Source: Citrus sinensis (taxonomy: Eukaryota; Streptophyta; Magnoliopsida; Sapindales; Rutaceae). Taken from it: a stretch of DNA of 64,000 nucleotides. This document shows positions 28,908 through 64,000 of the stretch, in pieces. Below the pieces are notes generated by a model that saw only the letters and a program-made list of their open reading frames with translations, was not told the DNA's origin and ran no database searches. Made by a program: the position numbers and the translations under genes. Every line of letters begins with the position of its first letter. Within the stretch, counting starts at the first letter, position 1. Location: positions 5,934,001 to 5,998,000 of the forward strand of contig NC_068562.1 of assembly GCF_022201045.2 (NCBI RefSeq), read 5' to 3'.

Positions 28908-31900
28908 ATGGGATCGGCGGCTCTGTTGGATTCAAAAGAGTCGAATGATCAGAAGGCCACAGATTCTTCAGGTAATTTTTATTTTATATTTCTATGATAA
29001 ACTTTTGTAAGTGATTATTGAAAGCAATAAGTGATATTAATCTTGTTGTGTTGCTTCGTATTCCCAAATTGCATATGGCTTGTGATGAATAAACCCTTTT
29101 CAGATTTTAGGTTTCTAGTGAGGTTGAGATCTCTAGTGTAACTCATAATGACAATTGTTGTTAGTTATTATTACTGTTATTTATTTATTTATTTATTTTT
29201 TTAATTAGGCTTCACTCTTTATTGACTTCATTTTCATTGGTTCCTTTAATATCTGTGCAAATTCATCAAGTGTCGGATTAAGGACACTATTCATTTTTGG
29301 GTATTATAGCGTGTTCCTCATATCTTAGCAATTAACGAAGAGAATCTTGGGTTGGTTAGTTTTGCAGATTCAATGCTATTTCTTATAGTCACCCAGCTGT
29401 ATGTTTGTGCGTAATGTTTGAAATTCTCTGTCCCCATGCTTATGCCAAATACTTGTGCGTTTTTAGATTGCTTTTCTGCTTTTATTTCTCCTTTCTTTTT
29501 CTTAGTGCAGTGCATCAATAATAATAATATCTTCTTAAGCTCAGAAGCTTACAATCTATTTATTGTGTTGCTGTTGTCTTTTGTAATAGAAATGAAGAAC
29601 AAGAAACGGAAACCAAAATCTGAAGTTCCTGAAACAAAGGACTCAACAAGTGGCCAGAAAGAAAAAATGAAAAAATTGTCCCAGGACAGTGAGGAGCCTC
29701 GGAAAAGGCCAAAGCGAATGGCTGCTTGTACTGATTTCAAAGAAAAATCTGTTCGTATATCTGAAAAGTCCTATCTAGTTGAAGCAAAGAAAGATCAGTA
29801 TGCAGATGATGAGATTGTAGCTGTAGGCCTGACTGCTAGGCAAGATGGTGATCGCCCCAATAGAAGGCTAAACGATTTTATTTTGCATGATGAAAATGGT
29901 TTGCCGCAGCCCCTTGAAATGTTGGAAATTGATGATTTGTTTATTTCTGGTCTCATATTGCCCCTACAAGAAAGTTCTGACAGAGAGAAGGAAAAGGGTG
30001 TCAGATGTGAAGGCTTTGGACGGATAGAATCATGGAGCATCTCTGGTTATGAAGATGGTTCTCCTGTAATATGGCTTTCTACTGATATAGCTGATTATGA
30101 TTGCCTTAAACCAGCCAGTAGTTACAAGAAATATTATGAACTTTTCTTTGAAAAGGCTCGGGCTTGTATAGAGGTTTACAAAAAACTGTCAAAAACTTCT
30201 GGTGGGAACTCTGATTGTAGTATTGATGAGTTGCTTGCTGGGGTGGTCCGATCAATGAGTGGAAGCAAGTGCTTTCGAGGTGGGGTATCCATCAAAGATT
30301 TTGTAATTTCTCAGGGTGAATTTATTTTTAACCAACTAATAGGTTTGGATGAGACATCAAAGAAGAATGATCAGAAATTTGCAGAATTGCCAGTTCTTGT
30401 TGCATTAAAAGAAGAGAGTAGCAAGCGTGAAAACTTTGTGCAAGTAAATGCTGCATCTTTAGGTGGTAATTTGGCTATTGGTTCTAAAGTTGGAGATGGA
30501 GATGGTAAAATGGATCAATACGGTTCATCCACTTGTCCAGCTGATGAAGATGAGGATGCAAAATTGGCAAGGCTTTTGCAAGAAGAGGAGCTCTGGCAAT
30601 CGAAGAAGCAGAAGAAAACACAGGGTTCAACTTCTGGAATGAACAAGTTCTACATCAAAATAAATGAAGATGAGATTGCAAATGATTATCCTTTCCCTGT
30701 ATTTTACCGACCATCTGAGGAAGAATTTGATGAGCTCTTAGCTTATGATAGTGATTATGACAGTTGTGACATTGATCAGCTCCCCCGAAGGATGCTTCAT
30801 GATTGGTCACTTTACAATTCAGATTCAAGGTTGATTTCCTTGGAGCTTTTGCCGATGAAACCTTGTGAAGATATTGATGTGACAATCTTTGGGTCAGGAA
30901 AAATGATTTCTGATGAAGGAAGTGGATTCTGTCTTGATACTGATTCTAGTCAGTCTACCTCGGGGGTTTCAGGAGCACAGGATGCTGGAGGGTTTCCAAT
31001 TTATTTGAGTTCAATCAAGGAGTGGATGATTGAGTTCGGATCGTCAATGATTTTCATTTCTATCCGAACTGATATGGCTTGGTAATGTGCCTATTTTCTT
31101 GCATAATGGTTCAACATAGGCTTTTTTTTATAAAAAATTTTTTTCCCTGCTTTGTCTTGTTATTATTTTGCCTGTACTTGTTGAGGTAGGTGTCTGTAGA
31201 AATGGTTTTTATTAATGTCTCATGTTTATCTTTGCTGGGAGAAGTTTGAAATTATAAATTCACGCATTAAAAAATAATTTAGAATTAGCAAGAATAAGTG
31301 ATGGGTAGATTCAGTCTGTGTATATCAAGAAAAAAAATCTTGGCAAATCATTGCTATTATTTTCTAAAATATTCTTGAGAACGGGGTATCGGTGATATAA
31401 TTACAAAATCTGTATTGATGACCAGGGCAATTTCTATCCATATTCCAGGTACAGACTTGGCAAGCCATCAAAACAATATGCTCCTTGGTATGAACCGGTT
31501 CTGAAAACAGCAAGAGTTGCAATAAGTATTATTACAATGCTGAAGGAGCAAACTCGAGTATCAAGGCTTTCTTTCACAGATGTAATCAAGCGGTTATCGG
31601 AGATCAAGAAGGATCAGCATTCTTACATCTCTTCTGATCCAGCTGCTGTTGAGAGATACGTGGTTGTGCATGGGCAGATAGTTCTGCAACTTTTTGCAGA
31701 ATATCCTGATGAGCAGATCAAAAAGTGTGCATTCATTATTGGTCTTATGAAAAAAATGGAGGAGAGACACCATACCAAATGGTTAGTGAAGAAAAAGAAA
31801 GTACAAAAGAGTGAAATAAATTTGAACCCTAGAGCATCTATGGGACCTGTAGTAGTATCCAAAAGAAAGGTTATGCAGGCAACAACAACAAGACTTATCA

Positions 31901-34900
31901 ACAGAATTTGGGGTGAGTACTATTCAAATTACTCGCCAGAAGATGGAAAGGAAGAAACTGCTTGTGAAGCCAATGAGGATGAAGAGGTTGAGGAGCAAGG
32001 GGAAAATGAAGAAGATGACACTGAAGTGGAGAAACTAATTTTGGAGGAAAGACGAATATCTTGCTCAGTGGCAGTGCAAATTAAATCACGTTCTACTAAG
32101 AAGGAAATAACATGGGAGGGGGAGTGTGTGCGCAAATCTGGTTTGGCTCTTTATAAAAAGGCAATTGTTCATGGAGAAGTGGTTTCTCTAGGGAGTGCAG
32201 TGTTGGTGGAAGTTGATGAATTGGATCAACTTCCTGTCATCTATTTTGTGGAATACATGTTTGAAGCCACAGGTGGATGCAAACTGTTTCATGGAATAAT
32301 AATGCAGAGAGGATCTCATACTGTTCTTGGCAATACAGCTAACGAGAGGGAGGTATTTCTAACAAATCAGTGTAGGGATTTAGAATTGCAGGATATTAAA
32401 CAGACTGTGGTTGTTGATATTCGATCAGTGCCTTGGGGGCATCAGCATCGGAAGGATATTGCCAATGCCGATAAAGTCGACAGAGCAAGAGCAGAGGAGA
32501 GGAAGAAGAAAGGACTGCCAACAGAATATTACTGTAAAAGTTTGTACTGGCCCGAAAGGGGGGCTTTCTTTATTCTTCCTGTTGATAGTATGGGCCTTGG
32601 TGTGGGTTCTTGCCATGCTTGTGGCACAAAGGAGTCTGAGAAGGAAAAAGAAACATTTAAAGTGCATTCAAAGACCAGTTTTGTGTATGGGACAACTGAG
32701 TACTTTGTTCATGATTATGTCTACATAAGCCCCCACCACTTTACATGGGATAAAGCTGAGGGTGAAACTTTCAAGGCTGGGAGGAATGTGGGGCTGAAGC
32801 CTTATGTTGTTTGCCAACTGTTGGAGATCATTGTCCCAAAGGAACCCAAGCGAGCAGAAGTAAAATCTACCCAGGTCAAAGTTAGAAGATTTTTTAGACC
32901 AGATGATATTTCAGCAGAGAAGGCATATTGTTCTGACATTCGAGAGGTATGAGATGCGTAAAATAGAAAACAAAAAAAACTTTCCCTGCATCTCTTGTAA
33001 TTCTTTGGCTATATTATTATGATGGTACGCAAAAGCCCTTTCCTTGGTATCTTATGGACCTCCACTGATCTGTGTGGCTTAATTTTCAGGTCTACTACAG
33101 TGAAGAAACACATCTTATTTTTGTTGAGGCTATAGCAGGGAAATGTGAAGTCAGAAAGAAAAATGACATTCCTGCTTGCAATGCTCCTGCAATCTTTCAG
33201 CATATCTTCTTCTGTGAACATCTGTATGATCCTTCTAAAGGGTCCCTCAAGCAGGTAATCTCTCCCTTTCTTCCTAATTTGGTAGTGCTCTTGTTTATCA
33301 TTTATTTTTTTTTTTGGGAGTTTGAAGGCTTTAAAACTGTGTTAATTACTTCTGTACCATTTCAAGTTGCATATAAGGAGACTTTCCTCTATTGGATGCT
33401 ATTTTATCTTTTCAATTTCATTTGTGAACAGCTGCCTGCTCATATCAAACTGAGGTACTCAAGTGGGAGTCTGGATAGTGAAGCTGCATCAAGAAGGAAG
33501 AAGGGAAAGTGTATAGAGGGAGAAGACGAGTTAGAAGTTGAGAAACAAGGAGGGGCATCTCAGGAAAATCATCTCGCCACATTGGATATTTTTGCAGGCT
33601 GTGGTGGCTTGTCGGAAGGATTGCAACAATCTGGTACATTTAGTTTAGTCTACCATTTTTTTTTTGTTTGGGGGGGGGGGGGGCAGAATCTGTTTGTAAT
33701 GCATATTTTTCATGCCCTTCCTGACTGGCCATTCACTTTTGCCAAAAAAAAAAAATCTACAGGGATATCATCAACCAAGTGGGCGATTGAATATGAAGAA
33801 CCTGCTGGAGAAGCATTTAAACTCAATCATCCAGAGTCATTGATGCTTATCAATAATTGTAACGTGATTCTTAGGTCAGTGGTTGCATTGAGATGAACAT
33901 GCATCCTTCCTTATAATATTGAGATAATTGATTATGGCTTGTATTGCAGGGCTGTGATGGAGAAGTGCGGGGATGCTGAGGACTGTGTATCAACTTCTGA
34001 GGCTGCTGAATTGGCTGCATCACTAGACGAGAATGTAATTAACAATCTGCCTTTACCAGGGCAGGTGGATTTCATTAATGGTGGTCCTCCATGCCAGGTA
34101 ATGTGGATTTCGGACCTTACCTCTGCTATTCAATATCGTGAGCAACTTTTTGACTTAAAAGCAAATGTTTGTTTTTTCCCCAGGGGTTTTCTGGTATGAA
34201 TAGGTTTAACCAAAGCACCTGGAGTAAAGTCCAGTGTGAGATGATCTTAGCATTCTTGTCTTTTGCTGATTACTTTCAGCCAAGGTACTTCCTCCTTGAG
34301 AATGTCAGGAATTTTGTCTCGTTCAATAAAGGACAAACATTCCGTCTAACATTGGCTTCACTACTTGAAATGGGTTATCAGGTACATGTTGCCCTACTGC
34401 TTAAGAGGGAATTGATTGTTAACTTTTATATGTTATATTTATTGAAGCATGCATGGCATTTATGAATTTTGCATGCAGATAACTTAGCTAGCTATCTTTG
34501 CATTTAGGTGAGGTTTGGTATCTTGGAAGCTGGAGCCTTTGGAGTTTCTCAGTCACGAAAACGGGCATTCATATGGGCAGCCTCCCCACATGATACCCTC
34601 CCTGAATGGCCCGAACCAATGCACGTATTTGCTGCCCCAGAGTTGAAAATCATGTTATCTGATAATTATCAGTATTCTGCTGTTCGGAGTACCGCAAATG
34701 GAGCTCCTTTCCGGGCAATGACCGTTAGAGATACAATAGGTGATTTGCCGGCAGTAGGTAATGGAGCTTCTAAGACAATTATGGAGGTAAGAAGGATTCA
34801 AACACATTTATTTGGGGGGATTCATTTGTAGTTTTGCACACCGAGAAGTTTTTTGAAACTATGTGGATCTTATTTTTGACATTTTGTTTGACAGTATCAA

Positions 34901-54892: not shown

Positions 54893-56335
54893 ACCATTTG
54901 AGCGTGCAATTATAAGAAAGCCAGGTCACTACAGTTGTAAAAATTTAACTCTGATTTTGACTATGTCTTGTCTGATGTATAGCTCGATTAGTGAAGATTG
55001 ACAATATTTTTACATATACATAATTTCATAGTGTTATATAATTGGGTTTTACATTGATGATTATTTGCTTTCTTTTTCCTTCACAATTTCATATCTTTCT
55101 CTTTTTTAATTTATTTTTAACAAAAAAGGAAAAGAAAAGAAAAAGAAGGTCATTTTTTTAATTAATAACTCTTTCTAAGTTTTTGGTTCAAAAGCTTGTA
55201 AAAAAACACCCATCCATTTGAGAAGATCTTTCATAATTTTGCAACATTATTACTCATCCATTCACTATTTATCACATATTTATGCATATTATCAAAATTG
55301 ATTGAAGTATACACGTGGCAATCAGTAAATGGAAAGAGAGTAATGCTTCAGGAGCACTTAAGAATTTCTCATGGCGTTCACTGACTAAAATGTACACTAA
55401 TGAAACTTGTCAATTCTAGTAAATTTTCTTCAAACATAAAGGATTTTTAAAAAATATCTCCAAGCTTATCAACTATGCAAGATTCTAGAGGCAGGGGTAC
55501 TAATAAATTTCAAAATTGATTATATAAAGTGAGTTTATCGAAATTAAAATCTTAGGTGACCGGAGTAAGGAGCAAAAGATTAACGGGACTGCTTTATACA
55601 GTATTAAAAATAATTATGTTCATTATTTTAAATAAATAAATTAACGGGTGTTGATCGAAAATTTTTGAAGTATTACATATTTTGAACTTTTATGTGATCT
55701 CTCCGTTCCAAGGCTAACTGTAAGGATGATCTAACAGTACTTTTTCACTGTAAAATTTTCTACACATATGCCATGTTTGTACTTCATAAATTCAAAAGAA
55801 AAGAGGAAAACGATATGGCACCTTCAAAAATTGTAGCTATTTAATTTGGCACTAATTAAAATGAACGTCACAACTAGACTAGAATTTGGTAATGGGCACT
55901 CTTGTAACTCTTGACACAAGGATAAAAATAATCATCATTTACAGAGGAAAATGAATGTGGTGTAGCACCAACATAATTGTGTTGAGGGAAGCAACGACTA
56001 GCAACGTTCTTTGCTGGCTTTCAGCTTCAGCCACAACAGCTTGCGGTATGTCAAGCAGAATCATTATCCATGCAAAATCTGAATCCATGAATCATCAAAC
56101 TGTAGTGCCAGAATCAATCCAAAATTCCTTACTTTCCTCCCATAAATAATTTCGAAAAAATATGGGGAGAGCTAAAACCAGGTGGCAAATGTCCTCAAAT
56201 CAAATGATTCTTTTACACTACCATATCGATTGGTAGCAAAATGGAAATCTCAAGCCTAAGATAAATTACTCTGAACAGAGGAGGACAAAAAATGTACAGC
56301 ATCAGTACCAACTTATAAAGTCCGGCTTTTGCAAA
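54893..56335. other. Convergent intergenic region
   Basis: Lies between the 3' ends of the BPS1-like gene (+) and the Harbinger-derived gene (-). It holds the two 3'-UTRs and A+T-rich DNA. I see no terminal inverted repeat of a Harbinger element here. An open frame at 55955-56149 is unremarkable. Confidence 0.4.
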
Positions 56336-57688
56336 TCACCATTGATCCAATTTGTTTATGAAATCATTCCACATAGCCGCTGCAATTGATTCTCGCATTG
56401 CTGAAGCAATTTGCTCCTGCATAGAAGAAGCTAACTGCATGTCAAATTGATCCTCAAAATAAGGCATCTCTTCCTCTGGCTCCCCATTGACAGTAGCAAA
56501 CAACCAATCATTTTTTTCCTCACGTCGGATGTAATTATGTAGAACACAGGCAGCGATAACTATATCCCTTTGGATATGAAATGCATACTGAGGGGCAAGT
56601 TTGAGAATAGGAAATCGAGTTTTCAGCACGTTAAATGACCTCTGAATGACATTTCTTAGTGATGAATGCCGATGATTGAACAGCTCCTTTGCATTTCTAG
56701 GCAATTTATTAGCACCCCTATATTCATGCAAGTGATACCGAATTCCTACGTATGGAGCAATAAATCCTTCTGTGTTTGTGTAATCCATATCAACCAGGTA
56801 ATAGTTTCCTGAAACATTGAAGACTTAATCATAAGTATTAAAGAAGAAAAACCAAGTATATATGTGCAATAAGTTGCATGCTTTTGCAACATCTCTATTT
56901 TAGAAGAACCTTCTGGAATGTGAGGAAAATTCTGATCTGGATCATCTAAGACTGCCCTTAACACTCGTGAATCTGCAACAGAGCCTTCCCAACCTGGGTA
57001 AATGAATATAAACTGTAGGTCAAATGTACATGCTGCCAACACGTTTTGTGATAATAGACCTTTCTTATTACGAAATTGCGATTGCTCTTTTGCCGGGACA
57101 TGTGCAGGGATGTGCATACCATCTATGACACCAATACAATCCTGAGTTGAAGAAATAAAGTGAATGACAAACAATAATGTGCATAAAATATAAGAAAAAA
57201 GCTGATTAGATATAAACCTTGAAATATGGGTAAAACCGATGACTACAGAGAATTTCTGGAGGAGTGGTCTGTGGTGGGGGCTGCAAGAATTCACGCGACA
57301 GTGACTTGATTGCCTTCAAAACATTATTGAAATGCCGGCTGATGGTCTCACCTGAATGCTGAAACCGCTCTTGGATTACTCTATTACGCTCATTATGACC
57401 CACAATATTCAAAAAAATTGCCAGTTGCTCCTCTATTATAACACCAGAAGTATCACGTAGCATGCCTCTCTGTCTAAGTGTGTCAGATAATTTGTGGAAA
57501 ACGTGTTTATCCATTCGAAACATTTGCCGACATATATCATCATGTCCTTCTAGAACTTGAGTCATAAATCCACTTCCACTGGGTGAGATACCACGCTGAG
57601 GTTGCTTGACTATGCTGTTATAGTAGTAGAAGCCAGCAGCTGCAGCAACTAATTCCATCTGATCCAATTCTAAGTCATAATCATCCAT
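56336..57688 (-). CDS. PIF/Harbinger transposase-derived protein (HARBI1/ALP1-like), catalytic Glu replaced by Gln
   Basis: Minus-strand exons: 57688-57218, 57141-56910 and 56808-56336 (1176 bp, 391 aa). The start is MDDYDLELDQ, just after a likely 5'-UTR intron acceptor (TTTCTACAG); the frame is open to an earlier ATG at 57745. An N-terminal helix-turn-helix region (IIEEQLAIFLNIVGHNERNR, SGETISRHFNNVLKAI) precedes a DDE_4 nuclease domain: Asp164 in GVIDGMHIPA, Asp214 in GWEGSVADSRVL, but Gln290 in HSSLRNVIQRSFNVLK, where active family members have Glu. The frame and splice junctions are intact and no flanking terminal repeats are seen, which argues for a co-opted gene instead of a live element. 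Relatives such as Arabidopsis ALP1 are domesticated Polycomb-interacting proteins; At5g41980-type proteins are similar (from memory). Confidence 0.85.
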
Positions 57689-57998
57689 GCTACCAGACAA
57701 ATCTGTAGAAATAGAATCAAATGCAGTATACATAACAAAATGCAACTAACTAATATAAAGAGTGAGTGCCCAGAAAGCAATCTAATAAATACTTGTGAGT
57801 TTCAAACACAAGCAATAATGAAACAAGGAATAAAAAGCTGACCCTCTAATTATCATTTATAATTATAATATTTCGACCAAATAAAAAGCAATAACTTATA
57901 GTCGAACTAATTACAGATGTGAGTTCTCAGCAAAACTATGATCATACCAGAGCTTTGGAATTAAAATGTACAAGACTATTCATGTCACTTAAAACTAT

Positions 57999-58412
57999 TC
58001 AACTAGAGGAAGCATTACACTTCCTCTGCAACCACGGGAACCTTTTCTCACTCTTAAGAGATAAGAATGTTTCTCTCGCATTGGGGTTCTCAAATAAGTC
58101 CAACGCAAAAAAGTAAATTCGTTGATCAACACCTTGCATGTCATCCAAAACTTTAATGCATTTGCTTATCGAAAATCGTTCTTCATTCTTCGTAATTGCA
58201 GCAGCCCTCATTTTTGAAGCAGCAGCTATTTCTAGCATTGCTTCCACAATTGCATCACCAGCAGCCTTACGATTTCTCTTGCGACGTCCAGAACTTGAAG
58301 GAGTCACAGGTTGGCGCTTGTTGTGTCCATCTAATATGTTACCATCATCTCCAGAGCCCGAAGTAGCATCCTCTTCCACGTAATTCATTGGTGCACTAGG
58401 ATCAATAGACAT
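57999..58412 (-). CDS. Harbinger accessory (Myb/SANT-like ORF) C-terminal-domain protein
   Basis: 137 aa. A low-complexity N-terminus with a basic nuclear-localisation-like patch (GRRKRNRKAA), an Ala-rich helix, and a C-terminal domain (FSISKCIKVLDDMQGVDQRIYFFALDLFENPNARETFLSLKSEKRFPWLQ; seen as ISKCIKVLDDM, YFFALDLFENPNARETFL and KRFPWL) that matches the tail of the Myb/SANT-like proteins encoded beside PIF/Harbinger transposases. The N-terminal Myb/SANT DNA-binding domain is missing. It sits 310 bp upstream of the transposase-derived gene on the same strand. A leader exon near 59085-59170 ending AATT|GTGAGT, spliced to AG just before ATG 58412, is likely. The family call rests on recalled similarity of the C-terminal block. 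Confidence 0.65.
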   Translation of the reverse strand: MSIDPSAPMNYVEEDATSGSGDDGNILDGHNKRQPVTPSSSGRRKRNRKAAGDAIVEAMLEIAAASKMRAAAITKNEERFSISKCIKVLDDMQGVDQRIYFFALDLFENPNARETFLSLKSEKRFPWLQRKCNASSS

Positions 58413-61310
58413 GCCCTTAAATTTTAATACATATCAACAATCAAGTACTTTTAGCCCAACTTTCTTCATTCAAAAATAAAAATAAAGCCCATATTCATTC
58501 CAATTCTCTATAATGAAATTATCCTAGTCCAATGGCAAATAAAGCACTCATAAACACAGATGGTTTTGAAACGAAGCAAGGCAAATGGCCAACCACGTAA
58601 AAGCCATGAACCAGTAACAAACTTCCAACACAAAAAGAATCACTGGAAAAGAACTACTCAACTTAGTTTGAGAGATTATATCATTTCCAGATAAGTTGAC
58701 ACCAGCTTCATTATCCTCATAATTTCAATGATCTCTTTTACCAACACATTCTTTCAAATATTTCTCCAATCTAAAATATTGTAACTTGAAATTTCAGAGC
58801 CTATGAATGCGTTACTTACATAGACAATTAATACTCCAAACACAAAGAAGGCGGAGAAATCTATGGTGATTCAGACTTTACCAAGAATTGACCCAATTGA
58901 ATATTTTGAATTAATCAGCTTAATACAGACAGCGGTGCTAATTTACTTTATTCAATTAAACAGGATATGAACTAATTTAGTGATATAAACCCTAGTTTCT
59001 TGATACATTTATTCAAGAAAAGACAAATTAAAATAATAAATGAAACCCGAGTAAAAGGGTAAAAGAAAGTGAAACTCACAATTCAGACATGTAGGTTATA
59101 CTCCGTTGCAATGAGAATCAAATTAGGGTTTAGTGGGTTTCCGTTTCAAACAGATGGAAAAGCATTGTTTTTGCGAAAATCAAATAGACACTGTTTTTTA
59201 CTATGAATTAATAATATCTATATGAAGAGAATAAATTCTTACCCAGAACCCCGAGGCCGGGAGAGATATTTCTAGGGCCGGTAAAATTTGACACACTTGA
59301 TCATCAGACATGAATATTACGTGAATAAATAAGTATGGAGTCATTAAATTTCTTAGGATTATTAAATATATCGGGTTTAAGCGCATATAATTTTTTTCCG
59401 ATTAAAGTTCTCGATCTATTTATCTAAAAATGATATAATTATATTTTTTATTTTAAATTAATTTGTAGATTTTTGTTATCAAAACTCAAATGTTGAATAT
59501 TATTCTTTTTTTTTTATTTTTTTTGAAAGGATAAATATATTCATAATGTTTTATTTATAAAATTTTATATAAACTTAGAATTTCAATAGTATAAATATGT
59601 AAAATATTAATAGATATATGTGTTTTATAATATTAATGTATAATATTATTTGTATAGGTATATAATTAAAAATTTAATAGTGTAAATGAGTAATATTTTG
59701 GTAGATATATATATTTTATAATATTGGTAGATTATATATATATACACACACACACGTATAAGTGGGTTGGTGATAACCCATTTATTTTTTATATCATATT
59801 ACAATCTCAATATTTTGACACGATTATTAAATTAATCGTATTGCGATCAATTTAAATTTAATACGACATGAATACGACCTAGTAATATATTTTGTCAACT
59901 TTAGATATTTCTTCTCTTAAAAGTTTAATAGATCAAATGAATGTGGTCAAAATCCAACTGTGATTGACTGCCCATCTTTATTTATTACCATAATTTTTTT
60001 TAAGTAGTAAAACAAAAATTATTTTGTATAAATTGATGTGTTTGCAAAGGTATTAATTGAATAGAAACAAAGGGAGATATTAATAAACGAAAATTAGATA
60101 CGAATGATATTAAACTTCCTAATTAATATCACAATATTGATATTAATTATAAATTATATACATATAAAATAATCACGCATGTTGAAAAGTCACGAATATG
60201 TGTTCACCTTTTTTTACCCCTTCCCATTTTCTCTACTTTTTTTTTAAGAATTAGCATCATAAAAATTAAATTAAAAAAATACAAGACCCAAATGGAGACC
60301 AAAGTACCTTTCTTCCGAAATTATTTCAGAAATATTAGTTATGCTATCTGCATTTTTTTTTGGTTCGTACATTTTATCAAGGCAAAATGCCATTAGATAA
60401 TAAATTCTTAATAACATCATCTAATTTTAAATCAACGCGGATTTGTCTTGTTATAAATGTTCCTCTTGGGGTGCGTTTGGAATTGAAATTGAGCAACAAC
60501 TTAAAAGTTATATCACAAAAAAATTTAATAAACACTAACTGCTGTAACTTAAAAAATATATTGATATAATTTTTTACTTATACGATGAAAAATTTATTAT
60601 ATCTTCAATAATTTTATTAAAATTATTATTTAAAATTTCTATTTACTACATATTATTAACTTTTATTTTATAATTACATTATTTTTTTTTACATCAGCTA
60701 TAAATTAAAATTATAACACCTTAATATCAAATAGGACCCTAATCCATCATATTCCTCGTTTTTTCAAAAAAGACTATTCATGGTCTTTGTTCACCGTCAA
60801 CGGCTATTAAACATTCTACGGCATTACATGTATGAAACAGAAAAATCTGCCTAATCCCAGTACTAATCCAAAAGAAAAGACTACATTACATTCACAGTTC
60901 CGTTAAAAATCAATTCAGCACCAATGACATTACACCTACCTTACCAACCTTGCCACCCTTCAGCTTTTCAAATAATCTACAACGAATATGCAAACAACTA
61001 ATTCTCTTCTGCTTTTATTCCCAACCCCACGCCCCCCAAAAAAAAAAAAAACTCTTCTGCCAATCAAAAACCTCCGCTCTAAAGTTCTGAGAAGGCTGCA
61101 GTTGGTGAACTTGGATATCCACTAGCCTACTCATGAAATAATTAACTACATTCCATAATTACACATGTAATGTCAATAGCAATTAGCGGGTGTGCGAGAG
61201 ATATTCTAATCACACGTCATTTCGCATTGCATTCTTACAAGGAGTTGTTCTGTTTCACACATCAAACCAAGATAAAAAATATTGTACATACAAGGAGACA
61301 GGCACAACTG
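58413..61310. other. Intergenic region upstream of the Harbinger-derived pair
   Basis: 58413-59170 probably holds the 5'-UTR intron and leader of the accessory-like gene. The rest is A+T-rich; a (TA)n(CA)n microsatellite lies at about 59734-59755. At about 60470-60740 is a possible hAT-like MITE (GGGGTGCGTTTGGAATTG ... TAATATCAAATAGGACCCTA) with partly matching inverted ends but no convincing target-site duplication. No gene was recognised. Confidence 0.4.
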
Positions 61311-64000
61311 TCAATCCTTAGATAGGAAATGCACCCGTGCAAGGGTGTATTCTTTCCCAGCAATCCAAACGCCAGTTTGTGACCACTGCACATCCTCCCA
61401 GTCAAGATTTTCTTCTATTACCTGTCCATGAAAAAAAATGTTATCAAATAGAAGACAAAAGAACCACAACTACATCGTTTCTAAGCAATGTACAGAACAG
61501 ATGGATTTATGCACCAAGCGAGGCCCACCACGCATGTTTGTTATGCAAAATATTGCATCAATGTGCATATATGATTGCACATGAGGAAATTTAACAGGAT
61601 AGGCAAAATAGATGCAATTTTGCTAAGTTGGACCAACATGCCCTATGCTGAGATGGGAAGCAGATGCCAAGCACTCGTCAATACAAAGTTTCTGGCAACT
61701 CAGGAGTGCTTCCAAGTTCCAAAGATGAACCTCCATTCGTTTTAGTTCTAAACAGGCAATGATGTCGAAAGAAACAAGTGAGATGAAGTACCTCCACATG
61801 CTCAGGAGGCAGTGGGATCCCAATGGAACGCATAACTTTTTGAGGAAGGGGCTTCTTACAACGAGACCAACGAAAAACATCAGTCATAATATTATCACCA
61901 TCAGTCTTTTCCTCATTTGTGGAATGTAAAAGGTGATTTTGAGACTTTTCTGTCTCTGTATCATGAGACTCAGATGCTGGAACAGCTTTTACCATCTTCT
62001 CTCCCGCAAAAGAGAGTTCATACCTGCAGATAACAACTCAAAAGATCAGAAAATACAAACCATTACCAAGAAATTGCCACATGTACTTTAGAGATTCCAA
62101 TATCCAGAAAATTATTCTGATTTGAGGCTATAAATCATTTTCTTCTTACACAAACAAATGACAATAGACTTTAATTCAAGTGACTAGTTTCATTCATAAC
62201 AGATATGAAATGAGAAAATACTATCAGTTAAAAAAAAAAAAAAGAATTGATAAAGTTGTACCCCAAGACCAACAGGAACAAGCAGAATGCAGAACTTCAA
62301 AGCTATATGCAGCTCTTCATAAAAGCAAAGCCTAATCCTATTCCATCAACTTGGAAACTTCACTAGGATGCTTCCGGATCTTAAATTTGGAACTTAGCAT
62401 CTCCAGTTAAGTTCAGGTTTAATGCATCTGATCCGTAAATTGTCGTATTCCAATGTTCCACGAAATCACATGATGATGTAAATATGTGATCATATCTCAG
62501 TATAGTTTCTTTAATTTGATCATTGGTGCTATGTAGCATTAAGAACAAAAGAGAAATAAGACAATAATAACATCAGAATAGAGGCAGATAGAAAACAATT
62601 ACATAACAAATTTATTAAAACAAAATATCATGTTCCAAAATCCCAAATGACAATCAAACAACCTGTGCAAACAATTTATGTCAATAACAAGATAGGAAGA
62701 CTACCTGCAAGAATGTGTTTCTAAATAAAGAACTTCCCCCTTCTTCAAACGTGCTGATGTATAAAGGGGCTTCTTCAGACCTTTATCAGCAACAATACTT
62801 ATACTGTACTTAATCCTGAATAAGTTGCAGGCATTCAGATTAATTAGTATCGGAACACTTGAATATCGAGGAGATTCAAAAAATAAATAAATAAATAAAA
62901 ACCAAGAAAAGCAATTATCAGGTATATTCAATTATTTCTAACTGTAATGCTGAGAAAAGCAAGGTCACAACGTCCCAACTCTCCGTGCACATAAACATTC
63001 AAACAAATTTTCCAACAATAAACTGATATATGTACGTAAATGCATGCTAGAAATTATGAAAAAGAAGATTATATGCATACCAAGGTTCATTGCAGAGGTT
63101 GTACTGAATTGTGACTTCTCGCACGAATCTTTGTTGCCGCAATGCATTCTGAAGAATGAAAAACATAAAGCGAGCCAGTTGTTATTTAATACAAACAAAA
63201 CATATACATAAATGCTCACACATACCCACATGTGCTACACAAGAATATGTGATTCAAAACATAATTGTCTTTGCAGTCCAAGTTATCTGACAATCATTTA
63301 GAAGCTTTGTTTAAGACAGATGGTTTTCAGAGCTGGCCTAACTCGGTGGCTTTGAAAGTCTTCTGTATATAAGCTACATTAAGACAAAGAGGGTTTTCCA
63401 GGTGCACCATGCCAGGTGTTATTTGACAATCTACCAAGTTGAATACACAATGAACACACTACATTTGCCAATTCTGACCCTAATTAAAGATTTAAATGAA
63501 CTAGGACAAATGGAGAGATATAATGGAAAGTCATCCACTGATGCAATCCCAACAAACATAAGTAGCTGAGTGATACCGATGCTGCAGCCCTAGTAGTCAT
63601 TGTCCGTTCCACTGCCATGGGAGCAAGGGTAGGCTCCACTGTTGATGAGTGAGTAAGACAAGGCTCTAGATCAATAGTTCCACCTCCTTTCTGCAATTTA
63701 AAAAACAGAAATTCATATGTGCATAACTATTAAAAAGTGTTAAACAACCTGTAAGCTACTAACTTCTACCAACTCAATAGCACTTGCTAAAGTTTTTATG
63801 CAAAAGAAAAGGGCATTTTAAGTCCAAAAAATTAGAATTATTGATTGAATTCCGACTCCATCAATCCATGCAACCATCCAATCTTTAACGAAAAAATGAA
63901 GCATCATTAATGAGACATCTGAAGCAGAAAAAGGCAGAGATAACTAGTTTGTCACCTTCACAATGCAACACTTCTCAACACGGTAACTACAACCACTTCC
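61311..64000 (-). CDS. Unrecognised conserved-looking plant protein, C-terminal part (5' end outside window)
   Basis: Six minus-strand exons join in phase with consensus splice sites: 64000-63956, 63690-63577, 63148-63081, 62815-62705, 62023-61792 and 61421-61311 (stop TGA at 61313-61311), giving 226 residues of the C-terminus. The visible product starts GSGCSYRVEKCCIVK, then KGGGTIDLEPCLTHSSTVEP, an NALRQQRFVREVTIQYNLC segment, an IKYSISIVADKGLKKPLY / GEVLYLETHSCRYELSFAGE segment, a polar stretch (SESHDTETEKSQNHLL), FRWSRCKKPLPQKV, and ends ENLDWEDVQWSQTGVWIAG ... ARVHFLSKD. There is no signal peptide or membrane segment in this part. The cysteine- and tryptophan-rich, evenly spliced structure suggests a real housekeeping gene, but I do not recognise the family. 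Confidence 0.75.

Follow-up and report, generated by a model that had tools for sequence, protein, structure and literature searches.

The closest described systems are pairs of host proteins that derive from the transposase and the accessory protein of Harbinger transposons. According to the accessible portions of the articles cited in this paragraph, one ALP1/ALP2 partner brings its counterpart to PRC2 (PMC7282668), and rice PANDA makes contact with PRC2 (PMC9129072). HDP1 and ALP1 have both lost the DDE catalytic triad (PMC7282668); in ALP1 the broken triad reads DGA, and the Trp required for binding to DNA is missing from ALP2 (PMC4671723, PMC7282668). HDP2 retains all three Trp on which DNA binding depends (PMC7282668). 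The C-terminus of the accessory protein contacts the N-terminus of the transposase in Ping, HDP2 and ALP2 (PMC7282668).

Here we analyze a 64,000-nucleotide stretch of Citrus sinensis DNA (C7:5934001-5998000, hereafter the window) within a 300-Mb genome of 11 contigs. As an initial annotation made from the sequence alone had proposed, the window contains a transposase-like gene with an accessory ORF on the same strand, 310 bp upstream (Table 1). The transposase-like gene (minus strand, 57688-56336) has three exons and a stop-free product of 391 aa, with GT-AG joins and introns at residues 157/158 and 234/235. Two alternative open joins would yield 396 aa and 381 aa; by our own reading, the 391-aa join agrees best with the exon ends of L043, a relative on chromosome 1. 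The intron positions match those of L043 and of transposon copies in the same genome, and the end of exon 1 is common to L043 and several of these copies. The product matched Pfam DDE_Tnp_4 over the whole profile (1-158 of 158; 81.7 bits, cut-off 24.8, E = 5.7e-23) and aligned from residue 1 with the transposon copies L033, L034 and L039. A PDB sequence search gave no match at E up to 1. With an open frame of 391 codons, GT-AG joins and both D164 and D241 in place, the earlier description of a preserved frame, introns and two catalytic Asp residues was borne out. About 23 kb away, at 29415-32952, lie frames with DNA methyltransferase 1 replication-foci and BAH domains, which we take to be probably a MET1-type gene.

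Table 1. Features of the linked pair and its surroundings, in window positions.
Feature	Positions	Strand	Content or basis
Transposase-like exon 1	57218..57688	-	residues 1-157; N-terminal part
Transposase-like exon 2	56910..57141	-	holds D164 (codon 57123-57121)
Transposase-like exon 3 and stop codon	56336..56808	-	holds D241 (codon 56791-56789) and Gln290
Gln290 codon CAG, replacing the third catalytic Glu	56642..56644	-	alignment with transposon-type relatives
Inter-gene gap, 310 bp	57689..57998	-	acceptor-like CAG ends 57703; donor-like site ends 57948; TATAAA at 57861
Accessory ORF, 137 aa, without Myb domain	57999..58412	-	open frame, profile and tblastn searches
At2g29880 C-terminal-like region, putative interaction module	58020..58136	-	residues 93-131; below-cut-off Pfam match and alignments
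Putative promoter and 5'UTR exon of accessory gene	59043..59250	-	read by eye

The catalytic residues of the window transposase are D164 (in GVIDG), D241 (in YYLVD) and Q290 (in RNVIQRSFNVLK), giving D-D-Q and no intact D-D-E triad. The region around Q290 presumably conforms to the R(3)E(6)K signature seen among related transposases. We aligned 26 rows from the genome, 20 of them transposon-type copies, some damaged; the alignment omitted a spurious match (L001), the window again (L010), duplicates (L017, L018, L024, L025) and L009, which has fewer than 200 aligned residues and carries Val in column 290, one residue off a Glu. All 20 transposon-type copies had Glu at position 290, with Asp164 in 18 and Asp241 in 19, which upholds the reading of the CAG codon as a replacement of the third catalytic acid. 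These copies are only a sample, since the exon-level matches listed set a lower bound of 146. Elsewhere in the alignment, the third position was Asp in L043 and Lys in L002 and L003. Two long open Harbinger-derived frames, L004 (C4:2921475, 356 aa) and L005 (C8:28565777, 363 aa), also read D-D-Q, so the Gln of the window is not unique; their third acid was perhaps lost independently. The initial annotation had named the same Gln in clearly active transposases as evidence against it; none of the 20 aligned transposon copies has this Gln, which recurs in the open frames L004 and L005. According to work cited in PMC4671723 (in its accessible text), transposition drops drastically when a single triad residue of Ping is mutated. 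The D-D-Q transposase of the window has probably lost the ability to cut.

To set this substitution beside the rest of the protein, we considered the 56 columns that do not vary across five or more transposon families. Seven of them are changed in the window protein (C68S, M91I, A162V, R183K, M199L, E290Q and G294N). Five of the changes are conservative, the exceptions being E290Q and G294N, a second departure near Gln290 that was absent from the initial annotation. Of 286 variable columns, 162 carry a residue in this protein other than the majority one. L043 departs at 12 of the 56 invariant columns, sharing M91I, R183K and M199L with the window protein. In a leave-one-family-out control, departures in individual transposon copies ranged from 1/56 to 20/61 invariant columns, and some copies departed less than the window protein (L032 at 1/56, L034 at 2/58). 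The small number of departures at invariant columns, with E290Q and G294N among them, suggests that the scaffold was retained and the neighborhood of the active site altered. Selection acting on the transposon ancestor could also account for this pattern, which alone does not tell such selection from selection by the host.

The only Pfam match of the accessory ORF was to the At2g29880 C-terminal domain, at 20.6 bits and thus under the cut-off of 26. With the Myb domains of relatives as queries, a tblastn search of 56001-64000, which extends up to 5.6 kb beyond the accessory ORF on its upstream side, produced noise only (best E = 0.2); together with the missing Pfam Myb match, this agrees with the loss of the Myb domain described earlier. 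Myb-like coding sequence lies upstream of the accessory C-terminal part in transposon copies such as L036, L033, L034 and L028. In L011, a relative on chromosome 5, the Myb and C-terminal parts occupy separate frames that resemble two exons, so the Myb domain may have been lost along an exon boundary. What the window accessory appears to keep is a C-terminal part matching the transposase-contact region of the published relatives, making it a putative binding partner of the transposase.

The closest intact relatives of the pair are L043 (C1:13455403-13456882) for the transposase and L011 (C5) for the accessory. In a whole-genome protein search with 148 matches listed and the best 106 of 375 candidates scored, L043 summed over its exons reached about 347 bits (145.6 + 82.9 + 118.8; 48-56% identity), the best of the 148 listed, followed among the transposon copies listed by C5:24420874-24422060 (~292 bits) and C2:17639031-17640172 (~278 bits). 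By single stretches, eleven listed transposon copies outscore the best exon of L043 because their exons 1 and 2 continue as one stretch; only identity and summed bits therefore favor L043. A search with L043 exon 3 returned, after itself and a broken chromosome 8 copy at 77-80%, the window gene. IQ-TREE on 20 rows, omitting L002-L005, L007 and L041, grouped the window protein with L043 at 95.1/97. FastTree on all 26 rows did not pair the two directly, placing the window protein with the distant L002-L005 (0.43) and uniting this group with L043 (0.937). Anchoring both alignments to the window protein may have shortened its branch.

The accessory showed a parallel kinship. Its search returned L011 at E = 1e-23, then a five-stop copy on C7 and weaker matches, and the C-terminal exon of L011 returned the window accessory at 8e-23, so that the two are mutual best matches. 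The first exon of L011 encodes a Myb_DNA-bind_3 domain (59.3 bits). We obtained a dN of 0.409 for the transposase against L043 (364 codons; pS 0.715, saturated) and of 0.390 for the accessory against L011 (107 codons; pS 0.717, saturated). That both partners diverged to a similar degree and show mutual kinship suggests a joint separation of the two genes from the dispersed pair; with pS values near saturation, this reading is suggestive and stops short of proof. The window pair thus looks like a linked, Myb-less sister of L043/L011. Accessory searches of the genome found no accessory gene beside L043. We take L043 to resemble At5g41980 and At5g41980 to be HDP1, and the dispersed pair may correspond to HDP1/HDP2 of Arabidopsis. 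In the accessible part of PMC5715367, At5g41980 is counted among exapted transposon genes. By our own reading, a Leu occupies the third Trp position in the Myb domain of L011 and makes its match to HDP2 weaker.

Other relatives have not stayed intact. An accessory-like copy at C7:896971 (L045:3993-4277) is decayed, with five stops and no transposase remnant within the surrounding 9 kb, and an L043-like copy at C8:5144524 is decayed by one stop and a frame change. That these two are broken indicates that related copies do decay, a point in favor of retention of the window pair. No true relative turned up among viral contigs, phages, plasmids, or bacterial and archaeal genomes; one viral-contig match (L001) was rejected as a chance similarity in a phage-like contig.

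We scanned for termini, defined as 14-bp inverted repeats with at most two mismatches and TAA/TTA flanks, on the left at 54.0-56.3 kb and on the right at 58.45-62.0 kb. Consistent with the initial annotation, no terminal repeats with a TWA duplication were detected around the pair by this low-sensitivity scan. It recognized clear termini at just 3 of the 16 control loci of transposon type, so the missing termini are weak evidence. Dropping the duplication gave eight matches at one mismatch or fewer, of which the six shown are all A/T-rich. Among the controls, the clear termini were those of L028, L029 and L037 (GGTGGCGTTTGTTT, 0-1 mismatch, TAA or TTA duplications); two (L034 and L039) had a weak A/T-rich match, as did L043, which is no transposon-type control, and 11 had nothing. 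L028, L029 and L037 are Harbinger elements of ~3.8-3.9 kb in which both genes are recognizable. We found no near-identical DNA copy of either gene among the best candidates (the top one being L043, 70% over 182 bp), and no listed match in the whole-genome protein search exceeded 56% identity besides the gene itself. The check for near-identical copies that the initial annotation had recommended thus found none among the scored candidates. The window pair is low in copy number, and both its frames are intact.

Upstream of the accessory, positions 59043-63116 recur in head-to-tail order at C7:5998616-6002700 (90% over 4148 bp, spacing 5.57 kb); we followed the duplication to C7:6002700, the end of the examined sequence (the window to 64000 and C7:5998001-6002700; L048, L052). 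Its left break falls in the inferred intron 1 of the accessory. The noncoding stretch 59251-60720 differs from its tandem copy at 13.7% of sites (K2P 0.154, 19 gaps). The block 59043-59250 differs at 5 of 208 sites (2.4%), the least of seven measured tandem blocks, the others differing by 6.5-19.4%. The duplication also includes a small minus-strand neighbor gene with ORFs within 61311-62037; the pair is flanked by this duplicated neighbor on one side and a BPS1-like gene on the other. Capture of a host promoter by the pair, considered for the 156 bp upstream of the accessory that recur at 98% farther upstream, was dropped, as the repeat is a head-to-tail tandem duplication most simply read as copying the pair's own upstream block.

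One possibility is that the pair is a dead transposon, an old PIF/Harbinger insertion whose lineage is otherwise lost here and whose frames stayed unbroken by chance without serving any function. The genome indeed abounds in transposon-type relatives that share this gene order and these introns (at least 146 exon-level matches). However, the low-sensitivity scan detected no termini with a duplication, the protein matches listed stay at or below 56% identity, and all 528 codons of the pair are open. When the pair was assumed to be older than the tandem duplication (~0.077 per lineage), simulation predicted ~4.3 new stops, with a probability of ~0.01 for no stop and of ~0.0008 for no frame-breaking indel. 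At that assumed age, the frames would very likely have been disrupted by neutral decay. We consider a functionless transposon possible but somewhat unlikely.

The 310-bp gap between the genes probably holds a leader intron of the transposase gene. An acceptor-like CAG lies 14 nt ahead of the transposase ATG, and the best-scoring donor-like site in the gap is the one given in Table 1. Because unlinked L043 has the same acceptor spacing, the leader intron may be ancestral. A 50-bp segment of the gap, 57849-57898, has 94% matches at nine other sites in the genome and is a small repeat fragment. For the accessory, we placed the end of a 5'UTR exon by eye at 59080, with a donor-like ATT/GTGAGT and an acceptor-like TTTAAG before 58415; the donor scores only -0.2, which makes this placement weak. 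All splice scores come from a rough frequency matrix.

The transcript structure bears on two further explanations. The transposase alone might have become a host gene, leaving the accessory ORF as a functionless leftover, and this would suit a transposase that seems to have its own leader, with the acceptor spaced as in L043, next to an accessory that has lost its Myb domain and has weak 5' splice sites. Yet the 137 codons of the accessory are open at a dN of 0.39 from L011 (pS saturated), the related copy at C7:896971 is broken, and the block upstream of the accessory, at 2.4%, is the least diverged of the seven; co-option of only one gene is distinctly unlikely in our view. The two ORFs could also form a single fused gene, in which a donor at 58019, near the accessory end, is joined to the acceptor at 57703 to produce one accessory-transposase protein. 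This join is in frame and stop-free, but its donor scores -2.7, against 1.0 and 1.9 for the donors of the transposase gene and 4.0 for a site past the accessory stop, and L043 has an equal acceptor spacing with no accessory gene found beside it by accessory searches. We regard the fusion as very improbable.

Co-option of the two genes as a pair is likely from these comparisons. The lost Glu and Myb domain, the open frames and the absence of detected termini and close copies all fit the co-option proposed by the initial annotation, and they stop short of proving it. In a more specific form, to which we give about equal weight for and against, the pair would be an immobile PIF/Harbinger remnant retained by the host and acting as a dead protein-protein module. 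A single insertion would have brought in both genes, which the host then kept adjacent; the D-D-Q transposase would presumably no longer cut, and the accessory would have shrunk to its C-terminal, transposase-binding half. Both genes would be expressed and under selection, with the accessory C-terminus still binding the transposase N-terminus in the nucleus. Because the accessory lacks a Myb domain, such a pair would need another DNA-binding partner or would work by competition. Either another DNA-binding protein might recruit the pair, or the pair might compete with Myb-bearing L011 for an L043-type protein; in both cases a chromatin complex would be tuned in the manner of HDP1/HDP2 or ALP1/ALP2.

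We tentatively extend this model, in a form that we judge rather unlikely, to a split of the two-gene unit. The dispersed pair would have kept Myb-bearing L011 and L043 with its Asp, and the linked pair would combine a dead transposase with a Myb-less, microProtein-like partner. This partner would occupy either the window transposase or an HDP1-like protein of the L043 type, bringing no DNA binding with it, and would thereby restrain or redirect a chromatin complex.

A linked plant pair stripped of its DNA-binding half but still carrying its contact half would reveal what hosts retain of the transposition complex. With a dispersed sister pair present in the same genome, partner choice and competition become open to direct test.

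Among known systems, the linked arrangement has its nearest parallel in insects. As far as the accessible text of PMC9710019 describes them, the PIF pairs APLG/APM, LPLG2/LPM2 and DPLG7/DPM7 each comprise the adjacent transposase and accessory of one insertion, and the Anopheles pairs are single copy, with terminal repeats not found; the window pair is likewise adjacent and low in copy number, and the low-sensitivity scan detected no termini around it. Purifying selection was measured in the insect pairs and seen for the lepidopteran genes (PMC9710019). The insect accessory genes keep a MADF/Myb-like domain (PMC9710019), unlike the window accessory. The initial annotation had called a linked pair a notable variant; linked co-domesticated pairs have already been reported in insects (PMC9710019). 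We found no linked Harbinger-derived pair in a plant in the titles and abstract openings of mainly non-subscription literature.

Among plant genes, we take L004 and L005 to resemble the ALP1/At3g55350 clade. They are only ~26% identical to the window protein, and with the different intron arrangement of that clade, kinship with ALP1/ALP2 is not supported. The ALP1 clade has one intron near the 5' end, and two in Arabidopsis ALP1 (PMC4671723, in its accessible text), an arrangement different from that of the window introns. ALP1/ALP2 are nevertheless alike in combining a transposase-derived and an accessory-derived protein, and PANDA is the PRC2-associated ALP1 homologue of rice. In contrast to the linked, Myb-less window accessory, ALP2, the best described of the plant cases considered here, is not adjacent to a nuclease gene and still has a region that derives, in diverged form, from Myb. 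HDP1/HDP2 of Arabidopsis, which are associated with the IDM complex and MBD7, are likewise transposase- and accessory-derived Harbinger partners; of the linked window genes, the accessory differs by lacking the Myb domain kept in HDP2.
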